64,000 nucleotides of DNA from Cenococcum geophilum 1.58. Lineage: Eukaryota; Ascomycota; Dothideomycetes; Gloniales; Gloniaceae. How positions within the stretch are numbered: position 1 is the first letter of the stretch; every line of letters begins with the position of its first letter. The notes beneath the pieces are model-generated. The model searched no databases. It saw nothing but the letters and a program-made list of their open reading frames with translations, and had not been told where the DNA came from. Location: contig KV748211.1 in NCBI GenBank assembly GCA_001692895.1, positions 930,001 through 994,000 of the forward strand, read 5' to 3'. Positions 9,117 to 48,765 of this stretch are shown here, one piece after another. The translations under genes were made by a program, and so were the position numbers.

Positions 9117-9326
9117 TGTTACGGCACTGGTAGAACTTGGCAGAACTTTATATAGGCAAGTTGCCATAGATTGCCGCATATTGCGGTCACGTGACGCGAA
9201 GATCTTATAAAACATTGAGTGGCGCTACTCTTCTTCTCCTTTCCTTTCCCTAGCTTTAGATTCTTGTTTATAGACAATCCAATTATATAGGCTTGCGCGT
9301 CCCTCTTACTATACTTATACTTCGAT
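9117..9326 (+). repeat. 3' LTR of A1, left part (split by B1)
   Basis: Begins tgttacggc directly after the polypurine tract and matches the 5' LTR until 9326, where B1 begins. The last 22 bases resume at 25306-25327. The 5-bp tcgat at 9322-9326 is repeated at 25306-25310 and is the B1 target duplication. Confidence 0.9.
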
Positions 9327-9747
9327 TGTAATAAAGCCTTATAGCAGGAACTACGGTAGACTTATTAATAGGCCGGGTATATAGGTAAACAAGAAGTTAA
9401 CAACGTAATAATAACTAGTGGAGTAGTTGCCTAATAGATTAACTCTAATTATATTCTAAGATTTACTACAAAGGAGAGAACTATCTAGGTAGGGACTATG
9501 GTCCTTTAAATACACAACTATACTCCTAAGAAATCCCCTTTATACGTAAGGTACGTATACTTTATCTACTCTATTATAGATTATATAGATCCTATAGATT
9601 ATATGGATTACGTTATATAACCTTAGTTACTATTCCTCGTTATATAGCTTTATCGGCTCCATTTTAGACCATACTTAAATTAACCAACTAGCTTCTTCCG
9701 TCTCTTCTCTAAGTAGTTATAATATTATACTTAAAGCGTCCGTAATA
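9327..9747 (-). repeat. 3' LTR of B1
   Basis: 421 bp, ending cgtaata on the plus strand (cgtaaca before transition). Partner of 24885-25305. It shares the gtagggactrtggtcc and ggagagaactatctag blocks with the LTRs of B2 and B3. Confidence 0.9.
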
Positions 9748-12700
9748 CCATCTCCCTCCTCTTTATCTTTATCCTTAAAGATCTTAAATATCTTTAAGTT
9801 ATTTACTAAAGGTATAATATCCGTCTAATTAATTTAGTTAATATTTTAACTTATTATACCTAAAGCTCCTTCTTCTTCGTCTATAGCTTATTAGTCTCGT
9901 ACTATCGCTATAATATTATCTCTTAGTGAGATTATACTATCTCTATATTCTCGTTATTTAAAAGAGGGGTTAGTTTATATTACGTTAGCGAGTCCATCTT
10001 CGTAATAACCGTCCTCTTACTTAGAGTGCATTAAAGTAAATATTTATTCGTCCTATAACGTTCGCTCTGTCTCTAATGCTAAATATACGCAACCTATTAC
10101 TTTTAATAGTTGTCTAGTTCCTTAATTAATTTATTTTAGGGTCTTATATTTAATCTACTACTACGCGGCTAGATAATAAACTGTCTATTACTCTAGCGGA
10201 ACTTTATTGTTCTTATAACGCTAAATAAAAGGCTGCTAAAGCTTAGCAAAGGGCTCTTAATTCTTATCTTACTGCGTTCGCTTAGTTAATCCATCTTAAA
10301 AAGGTTTATAAGAAGGTTTGTTTTAAAGAGTAGAAACTTATAGAATAAGGTTTATAGGAACTTGGCGATAAAAGAACGGATTCTCTTCTAATAGAGAAGG
10401 AAATAGATCTAAGTAGTTTAGTAACTACTCTTCTTAGGTCCCCCTTAGGTGACTCGTTCTTTAGTAATTCTTTTTTATTAATACTACCTAACCTAATTTC
10501 TTCTAATACTCCTATACCTTTCTTATAGCGTTCTTTAAATTCTCTAGTAGCTTTTAGGTAGTCTTATTATAGCCTATTTACTTAACTTTATACTATATTT
10601 TATTATTAACGTTCTTATAACTAACAATCTTTAAAACTTACTATTTGTCTTCCTCTTATCCTCTATATATGTCTACTTTATAAATNNGTGGCTTAATATT
10701 CCCGTATACTAGCTCTAGTATTATAATATACTATATAGGGTAGATCCTTATCTTAGCTAGTAGGTTTAACTTAAATATAACCAGTAAAATCCTCTAAATA
10801 ATTTCGAAAGGCCTTAGTCTAACATAGTCTAACATCTTACTTAGTCGTTAACTCTTAAAATTTTTATATAGTAGCCACACTTTATCTCCCTCCTTAAGAT
10901 CTAGTCCCTTAGATCTCTTAGCATTATAGTACTTTTTTATTCTTTTTTATACTTTCTTTACTGATTCTATAAGGTCTACATAAAGATTTATTAGTGTCTT
11001 TATTTTTTCTTTAACTATACTACTTGTTTTCTTCGCTTACCGTAGTAATAACGATATTCTTAGCTTATATCCATAATTTGCCTTAAATAGTAATGTGCCT
11101 ATTCCTTCCTATGGTGTTACATTATATATAAACTATATAATTAGTAATAGTAATACCCAATTATTCTATGCATAATTGATATAATGTCTTAGATACTATT
11201 CTAGCGTCTAATTTAATCTTTCCGTTTAACCATCTGTCTATAGATAATATGCGGTAAAAGTTACTGCTTAAACTCCTTACTTTACTAAGAACACTTCCTA
11301 AAATATTACTATAAATTTTAGATCTCTGTCTAATATAATCTTACTTAGTACTCTATATCTTACGAACACTTCTTTAATATAGATTCTAGTAATATCTTCC
11401 GCTAAGATTTCTTTTATATATACTATAAAGTATCCCCACTTTATAAGCTTGTCTACTATTACTAAAATTACGTTATAATCTTGTCCGGTAATAGAGTCTC
11501 TTAACTTTAGTAACTTAATAATAAAGTCTTATAATATAACCTCCCATAGTCTCTCTGGTATTTTAATAGGTTGTAGCCCTCTATATGGCTTATGCCTTAT
11601 TAGTTTATTCCTTTAGCAATCTAAACACTCTTTTATCACTTTTCTTGCGATATTTCAGATTCTATTAATAATATATTCTTCCTAAAGTCTTAATACTAAG
11701 CCTATTGCTCCATTATGTCCTTAAGTTATTCCCCTATAGAAATCTTCCATAAAATGCTCTGCTATGCTTCTTAGGATATACTTCACTTCTCAATTTTCGT
11801 ATATATCCATTTATAGATCTTCTAGCTATGCTTTTAGAATTCTTTATACCTAAAAGCTTTCTAGTATCTTGTAAACTCTTTCTAGTTCGTTATCCTCTTA
11901 AGTTACTACTAGTTTAGGGTAATTATATCTAATTAATCCATCCTTATCTCTACGTAGTATTACTCCTAATAGTTTCTCGTTATTCTATAGTTTAGCCCTT
12001 CTGCTAAGTGCGTCTGCTCTTATATTCTTAGTTCCCTTAGTATACTAAATCTTAAAATAGTATTCTATAAGTATCTCTGCCTATCTAACCTATCTTTAAT
12101 TAAGTTCTTTTATTATTAGGAACCCCGTTAGGTTTTTATAATCCATCTTAACTATAAATGGTTTCTCTACGCCTTATAAAAATGCTCTCTATTTCTTAAG
12201 TGCTGCAACTATACCTAATAACTTTTTATTATAAACGTTATAGTTTAACTCTAGTGGTATTATCTTTCTACTATAGTATGCTACTAAATGCCATGCGTCC
12301 TTATACTTCTGTAGCAAATATACTCCTAGTGCGTAGTTTAATGCGTCCGTTTCCACAACCGTGTCTAGTCCTAGTTGGTAGATCTTAAGGATTGGCTCCT
12401 AGGTAAATAACTCCTTAAGTTCTTTAAATAACTTTCTTTATTTATCTCCCTATACCTATAGTTCCTCTTTCTTTATAAGCCTGGTAAATGGTTTAATATT
12501 CTTTAACCATTATGCTATAAACCTTCTGTAGTAGTTACAAAACCCTAAGAATAACCTTAACTATATTACATTCTCTAGTTCTTACCAACTTACTATAGCT
12601 TTAATCTTCTTTATGTCTATACTAATATAACCTAGTTTAATAATAAATCTAACGAAATCAGTCTTCCTTATAAAGAACTTGTATTTCTTAATTGCTACTA

Positions 12701-15109
12701 GCATCTGTTCTTCTTATAGTCTCTTTAAAACCCATTTAATATGTTCTTTATATTCTTCCTTAGTTATTAAGTAGATAATAATATCGTTAAGGTATACTAT
12801 AACAAACTTATTAAGGTATTCTTCTAACATACTATTAATTCTTTTCTAAAATATTATAGGTGCATTTGTTAGTCCGAATTGCATAACTAATAGTTTATAT
12901 AGTCCTTCTCTTAACCTAAAGGCTGCCTTCCATTTGTCACCTTCCTTAATTCTAATTTAATAGTACGCCTATCTTAGATCTATCTTCGTAAAGATTTGCG
13001 CGTTACCTATCCAATTTTAGATTTCGCTAATTAAGGGTAAAGGATACCTATCCTTCCTAGTAATGCTATTTAACTGCTTATAGTTAATGCATAACCTAAG
13101 TTTTCCATTCTTCTTTGGTACGAATAATACTAGGTAACCTACTAATGACTATAATAGTCTAATATATCCCTTTCGTAAGTTCTCTTAGACAAACTCTTTT
13201 AGTACGCTTGCCTCCTCTTAAGTAAGCTTATAGGTTGGAAAGAACCTTAGACTTATTCCTAGTTTTAACTCTATCTTATAATCCTATACTGTATAATCTG
13301 CCAGCTTTTTACTTTCCGGTAACTATAGTTTCTTACTATACTTATAGTATCTCTTTAGTATATAACTTAAGCTTTACTTAGTCTCTTTATATATCGCTCT
13401 AACTTAGTATTATACTAACTTAGTTTACTGTCGCATTTTACGGCGTTAAATATCTCTAATATTGACCTAACCTGTAATCCAATTAATCCTTAGGTTGTAT
13501 TCCTGTAACTAAGGCATGCCTAATACTGCCTTATCCCGTCCTAATAGTAGGATATTAAAAGATATCTCAATTCGTCTTCCTTTAATAGTTATCTAAATTA
13601 GTCCTATTTTAAGATTAATAATCCCTCTTCTATAGGCTATTAGATCTCCTAAAATTGTAACTAATAGGTAAGATTGTTTCTTCTATCTATAAGATAATCC
13701 TATTCTCTTTACTACTACTAATAAGATATAGTTCCGCGTTGCTCCACTATCTATTAGCGCCTTAAACTGCTAATCTTGCCATTTAACTTATAAATTTAGG
13801 TGTTGTTCTTAAATTCCTTTAAGGGTCTAAGGCTCTACTACTAGCTTTCTCTAGTCCCGTAGGCCTCTACTTTTCCTAACTATTAGCTACTTAATTCTAT
13901 TACATTTAGCTTACTCTTTAGCTAATGCCTAGTTCGCTTTTTATCTTTAATATACTATAGATACGTATTCTCTAGGCATTCCCACCACTATTATCTATCT
14001 AAGTATTCTTCCGTAAGGAATCTTCCTAGCTAAAGTATTAAATTTCCTTTCTTTTAGACTTCTACTAGATACCATCTATGCATATATTTGGCATTCCTAT
14101 ACTATCGCTTATTTATTATCTAGTATATCCTTATAGGGTATTTCTAATTCTTTTTCTTTAGATTCTTATACATCTTGTATATATTATCTATATATGCAAT
14201 CCATAATAGTATATAGTGTGCTAGGTGCTTTAGGTTAACTCTTAACTTGTCTTTATTTTTAAGTTTAAACCTTTATTATGCTAATCTAAACGTTATAACT
14301 TTATTCGCAGGTACTAAGATATGTCTTTCGCTTCTCTAGTCCTCTAATTATTTCTTTAGATTCTTTAATATTATAATTAAGGCTCCTTTAATATAAGTTA
14401 TGGCCTTCTCTATAATTAGGTGGTTTTAGATAACTCTTTTATCTAACCACATATAGAAATCTTCCTACTTATTATTATGCCTTTACCTATACTACTTTTA
14501 GTACAGCTGCTAGAGTATATACGGCTTATCCGTAAGGAAGTATCTTCTTATTACTACGTTATAACAGCCCTTTATATGTCGTTCTTTAAACCTAATAGGG
14601 ATCCCTAAATCCTCTTTATCTTCCAGTTTAATAAGCCACTTAGCTCTTAGTATGCCTGCCCTAGGCCTATTAGTAATTCTTCGTATTAGTACTCTATCCC
14701 TTATATGTCCTAATATACTAGATCTCTTATCTAGTTTCTGTTCTTACTATACGATAATCCTTTATCTAAATTCTTCTATAGTTTCTCTTAGTTTATATCT
14801 TATGCTTAGATCCTTAAAGTCTTTATCAGCAAAATATTGTCCCTTGTAAATGACCTCAGCTACTAAAAGTTGGCGTCGTTGGCGGGCTATTAAGGGCATT
14901 AACTAACTTGACAAACCAGCCTATATCGAGTTTATTTGACACGCAGCCTGCGCGCAGCCTGCGCATAGCCTACGTAACCTACGCAACCTACGCAACCTGC
15001 GCAACCTATATAACTTATAATTTTAGATAATAAAGGCTACTTTAAAGCCGTTTATAAAGCTATTAAGATAAATTGTATACACTTCTTTATATAATCTATT
15101 ATGTCTACA

Positions 15110-15435
15110 TTTACTACCTGTCTGCATTGTCTACCTATCTACATTACCTACCTATCTGCATTACCTACCTATCTGCATTACCTACCTGTCTATATCGCCT
15201 ACCTGTCTATATTATCTACCTATCTATATTATCTACCTGTCTATATTACCTACCTGTCTGCATTGCCTACCTATCTGCATTATCTACCTGTCTGCATTGT
15301 CTACCTATTTACATCGCCTACCTATCTGCATTGTCTACCGGTTTATATCGTCTACCTATCTATATTACCTACCTGTCTGCATTACCTACCTATCTGCATC
15401 GCCTACCTGTCTGCATTACCTACCTGTTTATATCT
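15110..15435. repeat. 17-bp tandem repeat (cattacctacctatctg type)
   Basis: About 19 units of a C/T-rich 17-mer. Because 17 is not a multiple of 3, all frames stay open and produce repeat-only ORFs, which are not genes. A shorter version of the same array is in C2 (about 34530-34690). Confidence 0.9.
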
Positions 15436-16349
15436 GCCTATAGTGTCTAATTTAATTTAGGGGAGAGGTCGGCCCGATTAAAGGCTCTGATTGATTTAAA
15501 TTGTTCTCCATGGCCGTTCGCTGGCTGTATATTCGAACAGTGGTTATCTAGGGTGCCTCCCTAGGAGGCCTTAATTCGATTCGATTTGGTAATAGGCTCT
15601 AGATTAATTCAATTGATCGATTAAATCGTTTGTAGTGTTCGCTGGCTAGTTGTTTAAACGGTTGTTGTCTGGTTCTGGTAACGGTCGTCTGCTAGTTCTA
15701 GCGACAGTCGTCTGGTTCTAGCGACGGTCATCTGGTTTTGGCGACGGTTATCTAGTTCTGGCGACGGTTGTCTAGTTCTGGTAATGGTCCTCTCTTACCT
15801 ACCTACCTGCCTGCCTACCTACTTGTCTGCCTACCTACTTATTTATCTATCTACCTACCTGCCCACCTACCTGCCTACCTGCCTGCGTTAGTATCTGGTT
15901 TAATTTAGGGGAGGAGTTGGCCTGATTAAAGGCTCTTATTGATTCGAATCGTTTTCTATGGCCGTTCGCTAGCTATACATTTAAACGGTAGTTGTCTGGG
16001 GTGCCTCCCTAGGAAGTCTTGATTTGATTTAGTAATAGGCCAATATTAAAGCTCTGGTTCAATTTAATCGATTAATTAATTAAATTGTTTGTGGTATTTG
16101 CTAGCTAGTTATTTAAACAGTTATTGTCTGGTTCTAGCGACGGTTATCTAGTCCTAGCGACGGTCGTTTAGTTCTGGCGACGGTTATCTAGTTCTGGTAA
16201 CGGTCGTCTGGTTCTGGCAACAGTTGTCTAGTTCTGGCGATGGTCCTTTACTAGCTGCCGTTCCAGTGCCTCCTAAGGTAGGGAGGATATAAGGAAGGGT
16301 AAAAAATAAGGTGGCTGTAAAGGGGGTAACTTGGCAGAGGTACGTGCGG

Positions 16350-16545
16350 GGACCTAATATAGAGCTTTATGTAGAGCCTCCGTATATAAAGCTTCGCGTA
16401 GAGCCTCGTGCAGAGCCTCTGTACGTAGAGCTTCGTGTAGAGCTTTGTGTAGAGCTTCGTGCAGAGCCTCGTGCAGAGCCTCGTATAGAGCCTCGTGTAG
16501 AGCCTCTGTCGCAGAGCTTTATGTAGAGCTTTGTGTAGAGCCTCT
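16350..16545. repeat. 12-bp tandem repeat (gtagagcttcgt type)
   Basis: Imperfect 12-mers alternating agagcttcgt and agagcctcgt. The unit length is a multiple of 3, so a frame coding for an RVEL/RAEP-like repeat appears open. The same array is expanded in C2 (35046-35403). Confidence 0.88.
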
Positions 16546-34228: not shown

Positions 34229-35777
34229 CATCGGCAAAATATGGTACCCTACTAATGGCCTCAATGGCTGGTGGTTGACGCAATTGGCGCGCAGTTGAGG
34301 GCATTTGGCAACTCGACCGACTAGCCTATGTCGTGTTTTTTTGACACGTAGCCTGCGCGCAACCTGCCAGCAATCTGCGCATTTAGCAACCATAATTATA
34401 TTTACCTCTTTTATACTAATAGCATATTTTAAATAAATAAAAGCTACTTTAAAGCTATTTATAAGGCTAGCAAAATAAATATTATTATTTTAGATAATTT
34501 AATATAATATAGCGATGGTTCTCTTCTACCTATCTACCTATTGACTTACCTACCTGCCTCTATCTACCTACCTGCCTGTATTGCCTACCTGTCTGCATTG
34601 CCTACCGTCTGCATCGCCTACCTGTTTGCATCTGCCTACCTGTCTATATCTGGCCTACCCGTCAGCATCTCCCTGTTTGTGCCGTACCTGTCTGTGCTAC
34701 CTTGATTCGATCGATCGATCGAATCGTTTAGTGTTCGCTGGCTAGTCGTTGTCGTCTGGGTTCTGGCGACGGGTCGTCTGGCTCTAGCGACGGGTCGTCT
34801 GGCTCTAGCGACGGTCGTCTGTCTCTGGCGACAGTCGGTCTGGCGACAGTCGGTCTGGCCTCTGGCGACGGTCGTCCTGGTTCTAGCGATAGTCATCTAG
34901 TTCTAGCAACGGTCCTCTGCTGGCTGCCGTTCTAGTGCCTCCCTAGGTTAGGGAGGATGTAAGGAAGGAAGGGTAAAAAATAAGGCGGCTACATAGGCAG
35001 AGACACGTGTAGAGGCTATCGGGAATATAGCGGGGACCCGATGCAGAGCTTCGTGTAGAGCCTCCGTATGCAGAGCTTCGCGCAGAGCCTTGTGTAGAGC
35101 CTCTGTACGTAGAGCTTCGTGCAGAGCTTCGTGCAGAGCTTCGTGCAGAGCTTCGTGCAGAGCCTCCGTACGCAGAGCTTCGCGCAGAGCCTCGTGCAGA
35201 GGCCTCGTGCAGAGCCTCGTGCAGAGCCTCGTGCAGAGCCTCGTGCAGAGCCTCTGTACGTAGAGCTTCGTGTAGAGCTTCGTGTAGAGCTTCGTGTAGA
35301 GCTTCGTGTAGAGCTTCGTGTAGAGCTTCGTGTAGAGCTTTATGTAGAGCTTCGTGTAGAGCTTTGTGTAGAGCCTTGTGCAGAGCCTTGTGTAAAGCCT
35401 CTAAGTAATAAGACTATATAAGATTATATAAGATTGCGTAATTGGCATATAACTTTACCTTAGTTGCATGTTAAGGAATATATAGTTAGCTTTTAAAGTC
35501 GTCAAATAGGTTAACTGTGTGTTATTTAACTTTTAAATATGTTAAATAGGTCAACTGCGTGTTAAGGAATATATAGTTAGCTTTTAAAGTTGTTAATTAG
35601 GTCAACTGCGTGTTATTTAACTTTTAAATATGTTAAGTTGGTCAATGGCGTATTAAGTTGGTTAATTACGTGTTAAGTTGGTTAATTCGTGTCAAGTTGG
35701 TCAATTTGCATGTCAATTACGCGAAACGCGCTAAACAAAGTCTACTTGAATCTCATCCTGCGAATATTTTCCCGATG
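34229..35777. mobile_element. Minisatellite-rich non-autonomous DNA element C2 (inside B3)
   Basis: Terminal inverted repeats catcggcaaaatat and atattttcccgatg (13 of 14 match) are flanked by TA on both sides (34227-34228 and 35778-35779). B2 has the empty site with a single TA. The interior carries the same minisatellite families as C1 but in different copy numbers: the 17-mer (about 34530-34690), the 20-mer ggcgacggtcgtctg type (34740-34915), a long 12-mer array (35046-35403) and about 40-bp subterminal repeats. No transposase is encoded. A TA duplication suggests mobilisation by a Tc1/mariner or pogo-type transposase. Confidence 0.8.
35046..35403. repeat. Expanded 12-bp array in C2
   Basis: About 30 units of agagcttcgtgt/agagcctcgtgc. 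It stays open in one frame, but the translation is only an RVEL/RAEP repeat, so it is not annotated as a gene. Confidence 0.9.
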
Positions 35778-36488
35778 TACTTTATAAGATATAGCTCTTT
35801 TAAGCATACCTTTTTATATACCTTTATAAGACGGCTTAGTTAAGTATAAGTATTAAGTTAAGCCTTTAGGGCCTAAGACGCTTTATTAGAATAATATTAA
35901 ACCTTAATAAGAGCTTTAGCTAGCTTACCCTTTAGTCTTTTAGCCGCTATTAATACGCGAGACCTTATAATAGATTAAATAAGGAACTAGATAGTTATAT
36001 TAAATTATAAAATATATATACTTGGTATTAGAGACGGATTAAATATTATAAGAGGATTATATATTCGCTTGCGTATACTTAGTATAAAAAAAGGTTAACA
36101 ACTAGATAGAGCCGTAATTATAATATATGTCACAGTACGTGCGGACTGTCAAGGTATGATGTACGAGGTGACTGTATATGATTGACAAACGATGTCGTGT
36201 GAGGATCTATGTAGGAGGTAAGGTGGTATTAACTGCCCGGCTGATCCTCGGTCAGCCGAAAAATCACGTGTTTAGCCAGCCACCTGGGTCAGATTCGAGG
36301 ATCTCCTCAGCGCTACTAGCGCTAAGCTGAGGAGATTCGCGTATCTAGGGCCACCTGCTGATTAAGCCGCTGATTGACGCCGACTGTAGGGTAATTAGGG
36401 CCATTGAGGCCCCAAGTATATATAAAAAAGTCCTCCCTACCTATCCTTAATCGCGGTAGTATGTCTGCTATTATACCTACTATATAAG

Positions 36489-38759
36489 ATGGCGCTGACT
36501 AACCGCGTAGAGATTAATATCGCTAATAATGCCGAATTACGCGCTAACGCGCAGTATGTCCTTGCCCTTATGTGTGCCGTAAGGCCTAAGAATATATCTT
36601 TAACGTACAATCCAAAGCAGAAGGAGTTTAAGGTAATACCCCCCCCCTCTCCTAAAAGTATCGTGGCCCGTGGCTAACGCGTTGTCTAGCTTTAGGCCTT
36701 CTATAAACGGAAGTAGTACTATAACAGCAATACCATTACGGAGGATAAGCTACTTCTTTTTCTCGTTAAGGAGGTTATAAGCCAGCCCTTAAAAGGGAAG
36801 AGCTGTAAAGCCGATATTAACGTACCCTAAGAGGAAACGTGGCTCTCGTGGCAGTTAGTTCGCGGCTATATTACCGCTCTAACGGACCTTTATTGGATGC
36901 AGAAAGCTATAGGAATAAATAGCCACCCGTCTCCGCGGGAGGACAGCATTAGGGAGTACCTAAAGACGTTATAGCGGAGGGACGCGTAGCGCGAGAAAGA
37001 GCAGTTCGCTAATAAGGGTAGAGATACCCTCCTTAACGGCTATACCAAGGACGAGTTCCAGAGCGTCTACCATAAGCTCTAAGCCAGGGGCGCCGCCTTG
37101 TCCCCAGAGTGCTACTTCCGCACGCTTGTTGATATCCTGCTAGGCCACTATATACTTACCCGCGGCGGCGATAAACGCTCTACTAAGATCTCAGATCTAT
37201 TTACCTTTAAGTTTAAGGGTAAAGGCCCTACGCGCTGTATGCCCTTAATATTCACTACACGCGCAGGTAAGTAGAACCAGCATAGCCGCCTTAAGACTAT
37301 TGGGGCCCTACGGAACAGGAAGCCGCTTATTTATATACTTAGCGGGCTAGCTTTCTATCTCCTATATTACTAGGATCTTAGTATGGAGCCGTTTCCGGAC
37401 TTTAGTAAGCGCTTAGTATAGTACAATATACGCCTAATTAAGGGCGGTAGGGACTACGAGGCGGCCCTCTTATATAACTTGCAGCGAGATTAGGTCACAA
37501 AGGCCTTTTAGTATGTTGGCGTTTTCTTAGAAAAGAAGACGTATATTAGGCGGAGCGCCGGCGCTAAGACGGCGGAGCTAAAGGGGGTTAGTAAGGACCA
37601 GATTTGGCGCGCTAGGAGGTAGAACTAAGAGTAAATAGTAGGCTATTACTTAAACTCTCTCCTATAAGAGTTTATAAGGTTAATAGTAGGGCACCTTTTA
37701 TAGATAGGCTGCTTTAAAATCCGCCGTGCGGGTATTACGCCGCCTAACGTACTGCTATTAATAATATGGCCTAAACTAGACAAATGGAAGGGCTGTTTTG
37801 GCCTATAGCTATACTAGATTAATAACCTTGCCGCTATAGGGGTTACGAACCTTCTCTTTTACCTCCGCGAGGTCATTTTATAGGACTTAGTAGCCCTCCG
37901 TAAGATGTTCCTAAGCTATCTAGTATAGAGCTACTCTGTCTTCTAGTATAAGGCGTATAAGGCCTTTATGTAGGATCTAGAGCCCTACCTACAGGAAGAG
38001 GGGAGCCTAAATTAGCTGTTAATTCTCTACTAGGCTATACCACTCCTTGCTAACTAACTAAAGGCTCTACGCGCCAAATATAAGCAGACAGCTAGTAAGG
38101 TTAAGGGCTTATTAGACTATTTAGATAAGTCCTAGCAGGCCTAGTCTTTATAGCTTTAATTACTAACGTCCGGAGGCCTTACATTTCGACTAGAAGCCCC
38201 TTTGGCTGTAGCTACGGCAGTAGCTGCAGCATGGCCTTAGGGCCGGTCTACTAACCCCCTACGTCCGCTTATAGAAGCGGCCCCTCTAGCTCTATCTGTT
38301 ACGGGATTTAATAGATATACGTCCGCCTAGGTAAGCGCTATAGGCTCTCCTTCCCGTATAGCTTCGCTACCGCCGCTGCCGTAATAGCCGTAGCCGTAGC
38401 CGCAGCTAGAGCCCGGGTCTGGGTCTCTACCTATATACTATATAAGCCGCGCGGTGAACTCTGTACGGGCCCTTTGGCGTAAGTGGACTAAAGGGCTAAG
38501 AGGTAATCCTTTTATAGTAGCGCTAGATTCTAAATAGGGTAGTAGATGGCGGGCTGGCTAGTAAAAGGAGGTTTAATAGTACTCCCTACGGCTCGAGGTT
38601 ATTAAGGAGATTAAGCGGGTCGCGTAGGTCTAGAAGGTCAGCGAGGAAGCGGCTATATAGTAGGTTAATCTACGGCAGGAGCAGATGTAGTGCTCACTAG
38701 ATTAGCTTTGTAAACGGCTTCGAGCGGGTAGAAAGGCTTTAAAATAGTTATATATATGA
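36489..38759 (+). pseudogene. Crypton-type tyrosine recombinase with GCR1_C domain (RIP-killed)
   Basis: A single reading phase runs from ATG 36489 to TGA 38757-38759, 756 codons, without a frameshift. It is broken only by in-frame TAG/TAA, in contexts where Gln fits. The middle third resembles the Ndc10_II/tyrosine-recombinase family: KTYIRR (about 37540-37560, where H-x-x-R is expected and a CAC/CAT-to-TAT change would explain Tyr), GYYLNSLP (about 37640-37665) and ITPPNVLLLIIWPKLD (about 37735-37790). The C-terminus (about 38460-38640) matches the GCR1_C DNA-binding pattern, with ALWRKWTKGLRGNP and WRAG. A Gln/Pro-rich linker separates them. Assignment is by pattern recognition only. Confidence 0.75.
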
Positions 38760-39004
38760 CTTCTAATAAGATACTAAGAGGTCCTCTATTAAAACCTTTG
38801 TCTATAGCCCCCTAGGGGCTCATTTTGGTGCCGTATAAGTTTGATGGGGTGCTTTAGGGTGGTGGCGCGCAACTTAAAACGCGAATATCTTCATTAACCC
38901 ACGGCCGATTCTTACCATTCTAGTGCGAGTAGAAAGCGCTCAGCAGGCTCTACGCATAGCGCTCGACGGGTGTTGAGAGTATGGCGTTGCTGGCGATTAA
39001 AAAT

Positions 39005-39036
39005 CGACTGTGGATATGGGGTAATATCCACAGTCG
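39005..39036. repeat. Perfect 13-bp hairpin near the right end of F
   Basis: cgactgtggatat (39005-39017) and atatccacagtcg (39024-39036) with a six-base ggggta loop. It contains CA dinucleotides that escaped transition. It could be a recombinase-binding or terminator structure. Confidence 0.8.
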
Positions 39037-39436
39037 CTGAACGCACGGACCTCCTCGCCCGCGTAATCGTGACTTAGCCGCTGATTCAGCCATATAAATG
39101 TACCTGTGGATATACTATTGGTATATATACACGTCGCTTAGGGGTCAGGTCCGTGCTCGTGTTATAACAACACTGAATCATAACAACGTGTTAGGTTAGT
39201 GCCGTGACAATATATACTAACTTCTTCTCTATATAGTAAGAATAAGATAGTATAACTTTACTAAGTAAAAGAATAAATATTACTAGCTAATTATAATGGT
39301 TAGACGTAGAAGATCTAATAGAAGGTATTAGAAATAATAAAGGTTATTAAATTAAAAATGGGAATACTATACCTCTAATAAACAACTTAGAGATAGGAGA
39401 TATCTTTAAGGATAAAGATAAAGAGGAGGGGGATAG

Positions 39437-46780: not shown

Positions 46781-47381
46781 ATTACTAAGTTCCTACAGAC
46801 CCTATTTTATAAGCTTCTACTCCTTAGAATAAACCTTCTTATAAACCTTCTTAAGATAAAGTAACTAAGTAGACGCCGCGATACGGGCCTTAAGAGCCTT
46901 CTACTCTATACTATAAGAACGTTCTAACTTAGTAAGAGCTTAAAATAGTTTACTATCTAGCTGCGTAGCAGTAGATTAAATATAAGACCCTAAAACAAAT
47001 TAATTAGGGAACTAGACAACTATTAAGAGTAATAGGTTACGTATATTTAGTATTAAAGATAAAGCGAACGTCATAGGATAAATAAATATTTGCTTTAGTA
47101 TACTCTAAGTAAAAGGACGGTTGTCGCGAAGATAGACTCGCCAACGCTATATAGACTAACCCCTCTTTTAAATAACAAGAACACAGAGACGGTTTAATCT
47201 CGCTAAGAGATAATATTGCAGTAATAGTATAAGTATAACGTTGCGCCTGCGAAAAGGAAGGAGTTTTAGGTATAATAAGTAACAATATTAACTAAATTAA
47301 TTAAACGGACATTATACCTCTAGTAAATAACTTAGAGATATTTAAAATCTTTAAGGACGAAGATAAAGAGGAAGGAGATAG

Positions 47382-47805
47382 TATTACGGACGCTTTAAGT
47401 ACAATGTTATAACTACTTAGAAAGGAGTTAGAAGAAGCTAGTTAGTTAATATAGGCACGGTCCAGAATGGAGCCGATAGAGCTATATAACGAGGAATAGT
47501 AACTAAGGTTATATAACGTTGTACGCAGTATACGCAGTGTATAAAGGGAATGTACGTACAATATATATAACACGTACATTACGTATAAAGGGGATTTCTT
47601 AGGAGTACAGTTGTGTATTTAAAGGACCACAGTCCCTACCTAGATAGTTCTCTCCTTTATAGTAATTCTTAGAATATAATTGGAGTTAATCTATTAGGCA
47701 ACCACTCCACTAGTTATTATTACGTTATTAGCTTTAATTTGCATTACCTATATACCTAGCCCATTAACGAGCCTACCGTAGTACCTGCTATAAGGTTCCG
47801 TTACA
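47382..47805 (+). repeat. 3' LTR of B2
   Basis: 424 bp, tattacgga...ttccgttaca. Keeps the terminal CA but has lost the initial TG. Confidence 0.9.
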
Positions 47806-47810
47806 ATAGT

Positions 47811-48765
47811 AAAAGAGTAAAGCTTAGGATACTAGCGCGTCTATAGGCTTACTATAGCAGTAATAGTTACTAGGGAGGTTAAAAGTAAGGATATAGAGGG
47901 CTATAGGCGACCCGTAGGCGACTTATAGGCGCTAAGTAGGCGGGGCTTAAAGGTAGAGAGATAGAATACGGTTTTTCTTATAGAGTTTTCTCCCTATATA
48001 TATAAAAGGTATAATCTGTATAGGCCTAACAGGGATCCAAATCGGACGTTAAGTAATAAATAAATAATAATAATAATAAATAAGAGATAAATTAAAATCC
48101 TTAACTTCTTAAACTCTAGAAAATATATTATACGATATTATATAGATAGAAGATAAACTTAGATATAGTATAAAGTTTTAATATACTAAGAAATATTATA
48201 ATATTATCTGAATATTAGTAGTATTAGCAATACCGATATTTTGTTAGTGCTAGCACTAATACACGTTATTTTATTCATGCACGGGCCTTCTTCTCTTAGG
48301 CTAAGGGATAGGAGATCTAGATAGCGCTAAGACGCGTCACAACCCATATATAACAACCAACTATACCTTTAGAACTCCTCTAATCCGTATTGAACCTTAG
48401 CGACACCCCTAGCAATATATTCAGAACTTAGACGGAATGAAGGGAAAGAGCAATTAGCAACGTGAAACGCTGACCGTAGATTTTGAGGAATAATTCTGCA
48501 GCATAGTACTGCATTAGTGAACTATTTCATAGCTTCATATAGCACAGCTCATATATCGTAGCATTTCGTCCAGCTGGTTGCTGTATTCTTTGCTTAGGAG
48601 TTGGCCATATGCCAAAGCAGGCATGAGAGTGATAATATCATTTAAGAAAGTTAAGGTATATATATAGGATTTGGAGACTATAGCCTTAAAACTTTGCTGA
48701 TTAGGATATTCACCTGATTTCTTTTGGTGCACCCAGCAGTCAACAATTACGATGACGATGCATGC
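47811..48765. other. Transition from transposon island to gene island
   Basis: 47811-48270 is AT-rich, with an (aat)n run near 48057-48085 and no recognisable element. From about 48270 composition becomes balanced. A 65-codon minus-strand frame at 48535-48732 begins with GTG rather than ATG and shows no family resemblance, so it is not called. The 3' end and terminator of the WW/FF gene should lie within 48400-48765. Confidence 0.5.

Follow-up and report, generated by a model that had tools for sequence, protein, structure and literature searches.

A broken CryptonF element nested within a solo LTR of Cenococcum geophilum, with unequal core sequences at Crypton junctions

The locus described here lies in a 64,000-nucleotide stretch of the Cenococcum geophilum 1.58 genome (contig KV748211.1, positions 930,001 to 994,000; contig C36 in our numbering of the 177-Mb genome). 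This whole stretch is called the window, and all unprefixed coordinates refer to it. A first-pass annotation had described 36128..39209 as one element enclosing a tyrosine recombinase gene. The pentamer ATATA occurs immediately to the left (36123..36127) and right (39210..39214) of this interval. The left terminus begins with TGTCACAGTAC and the right one ends in GTGCCGTGACA, whose reverse complement, TGTCACGGCAC, equals the left terminus at nine of 11 positions, the two differences being transitions. When the flanks were joined and aligned with two host-block paralogues from other parts of the window, the alignment was contiguous across the insertion, with 68.5% identity over 1,051 columns for the minus-strand paralogue (9320-10347) and 65.9% over 1,036 columns for the plus-strand one (46803-47815). 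On the minus-strand paralogue, the left flank ended at 9976 and the right flank began at 9981, giving an overlap of ca. 5 bp, which is what a target duplication requires. The outer coordinates with ATATA on both sides, the inverted termini differing by transitions alone, and the precise insertion were thus all borne out. What the first pass could not show is that the interval holds two elements. The inner of these extends from 36224 to 39118, or to 39124 with its repeated core.

The window as a whole is a nest of repeats. It contains inverted repeat arms at 5432-7316/19267-21151 (1,885 bp, 80% complementarity) and at 10245-11803/45347-46905 (1,559 bp, 86% complementarity). Minisatellite-like arrays with periods of 17, 20, and 12 bp were seen at 15053-15495, 15642-16269, 16346-16543, and 35030-35438, the array with the 12-bp period being present in two blocks of the window.

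The interior of the interval carries a recombinase pseudogene on the forward strand (36489..38761). It reads in a single frame over 757 codons, the terminal TGA counted, and is interrupted by 49 internal stops, all of them TAA or TAG. Its predicted product retained an NDC10_II domain (PF16787, about 36900-37958, E 3.3e-55) and a GCR1_C domain (PF12550, about 38436-38669, E 3.4e-13), both on the forward strand, confirming the resemblance to these families noticed in the first pass. In Cryptons, the recombinase region is recognised by its NDC10_II domain, and a protein combining NDC10_II with GCR1_C, as seen in this relic, is a trait of CryptonF. Among 7,999 scored candidates, 140 proteins matched the relic at E ≤ 0.001, and the three best of the 120 listed protein matches showed 59-61% identity over 85-89% of the query. 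In an alignment of the relic with seven relatives, R225 and Y387, which we take to be the catalytic arginine and tyrosine of the R-H-R-Y set, were invariant and are kept in the relic, which no longer has the histidine of HxxR. A PDB sequence search with the relic gave no match up to E 1.

The outer segments were examined by genome searches, in each of which the best 40 candidates were scored, and 20 loci of the outer repeat were fetched, namely the window itself and 19 others. The left segment (36128..36229, forward strand, 102 bp) occurred at no fewer than 40 places in the genome at ≥97% identity, window included (288 candidates at first look). Joined to the right segment (39125..39209, forward strand, 85 bp), it forms a repeat of 187 bp, and all 19 other fetched copies (182-187 bp) were uninterrupted at the exact break point of the window copy, continuing into the sequence of the right segment. 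The joined 187 bp showed 90-98% identity to each of these contiguous copies; small gaps were present in ten of them, all away from the junction, and the ten bases on each side of the junction were the same in every copy save for one G/A difference. All 19 carried GGTGGTATATATACACG at the core position described below.

This repeat has TG...CA ends, and a perfect 5-bp duplication, whose sequence varies by copy, flanked 11 of the 19 fetched copies (in L039, four of five bases agreed). A search for partner copies in the same orientation within 1.5 kb found a second copy 1.1-1.3 kb away in six of the 19 loci, which represent five elements. One of these elements is bounded by L028 and L029, whose repeats lie 1,143 bp apart with ATTAT outside both; one copy, L022, had neither a duplication nor a partner in its locus. 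TG...CA ends, a 5-bp duplication, and solo copies are typical of terminal-repeat retrotransposons in miniature (TRIMs) and solo LTRs. The repeat is named an LTR on the grounds of its ends, its duplications, its solo copies, and its paired direct copies, and its layout is that of a short TRIM-like LTR element with solo LTRs. Inspection by eye, at L029, recognised no primer-binding site or polypurine tract beside the 187-bp repeat.

The inner element is a CryptonF of 2,895 bp on the forward strand when one copy of its core is counted (36224..39118), its limits being set by matches of its ends elsewhere. The left end (a query of 361 positions) matched at 40 other places besides the window, and 40 of the 41 scored matches began at query positions 89-108, around the boundary at 97 that corresponds to 36224. 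The LTR half was present in only one of the 41, the window's own copy. For the right end (510 positions), 39 of the 40 scored matches lay outside the window copy, and these 39 stopped at positions 318-434, the boundary being 425 (39124). A genome search with the body, 36490-38760, gave 44 match rows, one of them being the window itself. The recombinase element stands elsewhere with other flanks.

The hexamer TGGTAT is present at both ends of the Crypton in the window. The left core (36224..36229) is common to the LTR target and the Crypton, other Crypton left ends also beginning here, and the right core (39119..39124) is followed directly by the remainder of the LTR, both being on the forward strand. 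As the empty LTRs hold a single TGGTAT, insertion took place at the shared hexamer. The outermost 30 bases of the Crypton have no inverted repeats, with only three of the 12 outermost bases in agreement. The window copy thus shows the short terminal direct repeat (4-6 bp) without inverted repeats of its own that is a trait of CryptonF, and in most other copies this repeat is imperfect. Strong palindromes near the two ends, at 36290-36345 (-26.8 kcal/mol) and 39000-39045 (-21.3 kcal/mol), are candidate recombinase sites; these energies are for single-strand folds without a shuffled control. Two types of left end could be distinguished past the core, TAACTGCC/TGACTGCC and AAGAGGCC/GAGAGGCC (e.g. 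L047, L048, L057, L079, L081, and L085).

Decay was not confined to the window copy. In 19 other Crypton copies, at least 51 stops interrupted every frame along the copy, and no stop-free stretch was longer than 121 codons. Transitions outnumbered transversions by 292 to 3 between two Crypton units in contig C80 and by 330 to 2 between one of those units and the window copy. The TpA/ApT index of the window Crypton was 1.93 and its (CpA+TpG)/(ApC+GpT) index was 0.60, values that are a signature of repeat-induced point mutation (RIP). C-to-T and G-to-A changes of the RIP type wrecked the recombinase gene.

These results indicate that the interval consists of two independent transposons, a broken CryptonF inside a solo LTR, both in a repeat-rich genome with RIP-type transitions (probability ca. 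0.97). The first pass had offered a Crypton in a solo LTR as one alternative, and this is supported, its weak point being the name LTR, as neither priming signal was recognised by eye at L029. The Crypton splits the LTR and the duplication of the LTR lies outside, so the LTR must be the older of the two. The following order of events is proposed. A small TRIM-like LTR retrotransposon with 187-bp LTRs, whose paired starts in other elements are 1.1-1.3 kb apart, would have entered a host repeat and created the ATATA duplication. Recombination between its two LTRs would then have left a solo LTR, and a CryptonF would later have recombined into the TGGTAT at LTR bases 97-102, producing no duplication beyond the hexamer.

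The other alternative of the first pass was an undescribed composite, in which a recombinase gene captured between TG...CA ends moved as a whole. Such a unit would account for the intact ends, the inverted termini, and the 5-bp duplication that surround a single recombinase gene, and it has a precedent in MarCry-1_FO (PMC3212892). Multiple two-part copies, each with flanks of its own, are what a single composite element calls for, and this candidate was rejected: the window's copy was the only one among the 41 scored Crypton left ends to include the LTR half, the Crypton was absent from all 19 other fetched LTR copies, which form a contiguous family by themselves, and at many further sites the Crypton shows boundaries of its own. 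The two findings that the first pass had named as refuting, outer flanks on their own and the recombinase elsewhere among different flanks, were thus both made, and they favour the nesting. We, therefore, consider the composite extremely improbable. A different doubt concerns the outer repeat, which might be a MITE-like DNA element bounded by imperfect inverted repeats of 11 bp, in which case the Crypton would be nested regardless. The inverted termini (9/11), the existence of single copies, and the lack of a primer-binding site or polypurine tract recognisable by eye speak for this idea, but the same-orientation partners 1.1-1.3 kb away at six of the 19 loci (five elements) and the ATTAT outside both L029 and L028 represent the layout of an LTR element and make it unlikely.

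Crypton copies were also found in head-to-tail arrays, at C80:575312-583997, C19:829252, C23:1289297, C5:2170288 and 3754702, C95:101286, and L097. Seven array-internal left junctions adjoin the right end of another copy (two each in C5 and C80, and one each in C19, C23, and C95), L097 in C44 being the eighth, with junction sequences such as ACTAT-T(G/A)GTAT-TAACTG or -AAGAGG. In C80, three units follow one another with their left ends spaced 2,895 and 2,891 bp apart, and these units share 90-92% identity with 3-8 transversions per pair. The arrays fit the integration of a circle into resident copies; it is possible that they arose by unequal crossing-over or by the integration of multimers instead. 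Among the papers that a literature search on head-to-tail Cryptons found, none was about Cryptons by its title, and since the original description of Cryptons lay outside the scope of the literature examined, we make no claim of priority for the arrays or the asymmetric cores.

Several other insertion places were of note. At C106:227562-227637, two Cryptons of opposite orientation stand back to back, their left ends separated by 75 bp; they seem to occupy a pair of inverted sites within a single target repeat. Several copies were inserted at the 22-base motif TGGTCTGAGCTTGCTGAGGTAA (L061-L070), which occurs 273 times in the genome at ≤2 mismatches (145 forward and 128 reverse; 0 for the backward control). 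In places, this motif forms inverted pairs (C14:143845/144614 and C2:5708464/5709226), and it may be the terminus of some MITE-like repeat.

The cores of the Crypton junctions were compared in two sets. The first comprised alignments that started or reached within 12 bases of the end, with rows at one place merged; it held 23 left and 27 right junctions, window included, and removal of seven array-internal junctions on each side left 16 and 20. In the second set, the alignment was anchored outside the core; all 18 left loci were counted, and the 15 right loci were reduced to 12 by setting aside L090 and L091, in which the end was not reached, and the array-internal L097. L062 was read apart and is outside the 34 left junctions. 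T(G/A)GTAT was found at 15 of 16 left and three of 20 non-tandem right junctions in the first set, and at 16/18 and 1/12, respectively, in the second, which amounts to 31/34 on the left versus 4/32 on the right. When G-to-A changes were allowed at both G positions, the right count rose to 8/32 and the left count was still 31/34. Fisher's test gave p values of 6e-11 and, with the relaxed matching, 4e-8, to be read with the caution that copies in the same repeat are not independent. The three left exceptions were TGGTTT, AGGTAT, and AAGTAT. The right hexamers had T at position 1 in 31/32 and T at position 4 in 31/32. A strict 6-bp direct repeat in every Crypton copy was, thus, rejected, because the right cores differ.

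The origin of each hexamer was addressed through empty sites, compared at the family level for the LTR and for a short target repeat. Eight of the ten fetched loci of the short repeat read TTCTA-TGGTCT-GAG, and TTCTA and ATTTCT are two contexts found before TGGTCT in this repeat. TTCTA precedes six of the 34 left junctions (C106:227637, C70, L078, L083, L085, and L086), and ATTTCT precedes four (L071, L073, L079, and L081), although L071 is unmatched farther upstream and may be a chance case. In all ten, the core was T(G/A)GTAT and in none TGGTCT; overall, TGGTCT was the core of none of the 34 left junctions versus eight of the 32 right ones. Since TGGTCT is never on the left even though the short repeat carries it, the left hexamer is attributed to the element; for the right one, the simplest source is the target itself. 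Identical terminal 6-bp repeats, accordingly, arise when the target happens to hold TGGTAT, as the LTR does.

A one-sided core of this kind might come about if the TGGTAT of a circular Crypton were kept on the left and the partly matching hexamer of the target on the right, the two ends being non-equivalent and strand exchange by the recombinase, or its resolution, being biased; integrated copies would themselves serve as targets and build up the head-to-tail arrays. We give this model even odds. Biased mismatch repair would explain the asymmetry as well, as would a true crossover shorter than six bases. The asymmetry is a modest lead on the Crypton mechanism and the only mildly surprising part of the present results. 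For Cryptons, the choice of a target and the joining to it have been modelled on prokaryotic elements (PMC3212892). The present family offers a natural data set on both, as it combines about 40 matched places with empty sites, arrays, and a target carried by a repeat.

The Cryptons of fungi and oomycetes make up CryptonF (Kojima and Jurka 2011, PMC3212892), from which Cbf2/Ndc10 was derived, and an extrachromosomal circular intermediate has been proposed for Cryptons in the same paper. The present element resembles CryptonF in its recombinase with GCR1_C, its 6-bp terminal core, and its absence of terminal inverted repeats. Most fungal Cryptons are described as having 6-bp terminal direct repeats, which are likely recombination substrates (PMC3212892), whereas here the left core is nearly constant, the right one is variable, and both hexamers are identical in a minority of copies. 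The head-to-tail arrays are a further difference; in that paper, the word 'tandem' occurs once, within the reference list. MarCry-1_FO, a Crypton-Mariner fusion, is known from four copies that have 16-bp inverted repeats in common and show TA duplications (PMC3212892). It is similar in that a Crypton gene is enclosed by the termini of a different kind of element, but the combination found here occurred once among the scored matches. In TRIMs, a short internal region is bounded by short terminal direct repeats (PMC6934838), and the outer repeat shares this arrangement along with the TG...CA ends, 5-bp duplication, and solo copies, differing in that a primer-binding site and polypurine tract were not recognised by eye. 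A parallel to the one-sided core is found in the SE elements of Vibrio, which also have tyrosine recombinases, a 6-bp crossover region, and an apparently strict rule on the destination of the donor hexamer (PMC9345347). These elements are bacterial and share four genes, and their donor hexamer tends to go to attR, whereas the element's hexamer in the Cryptons examined here is at the left end.
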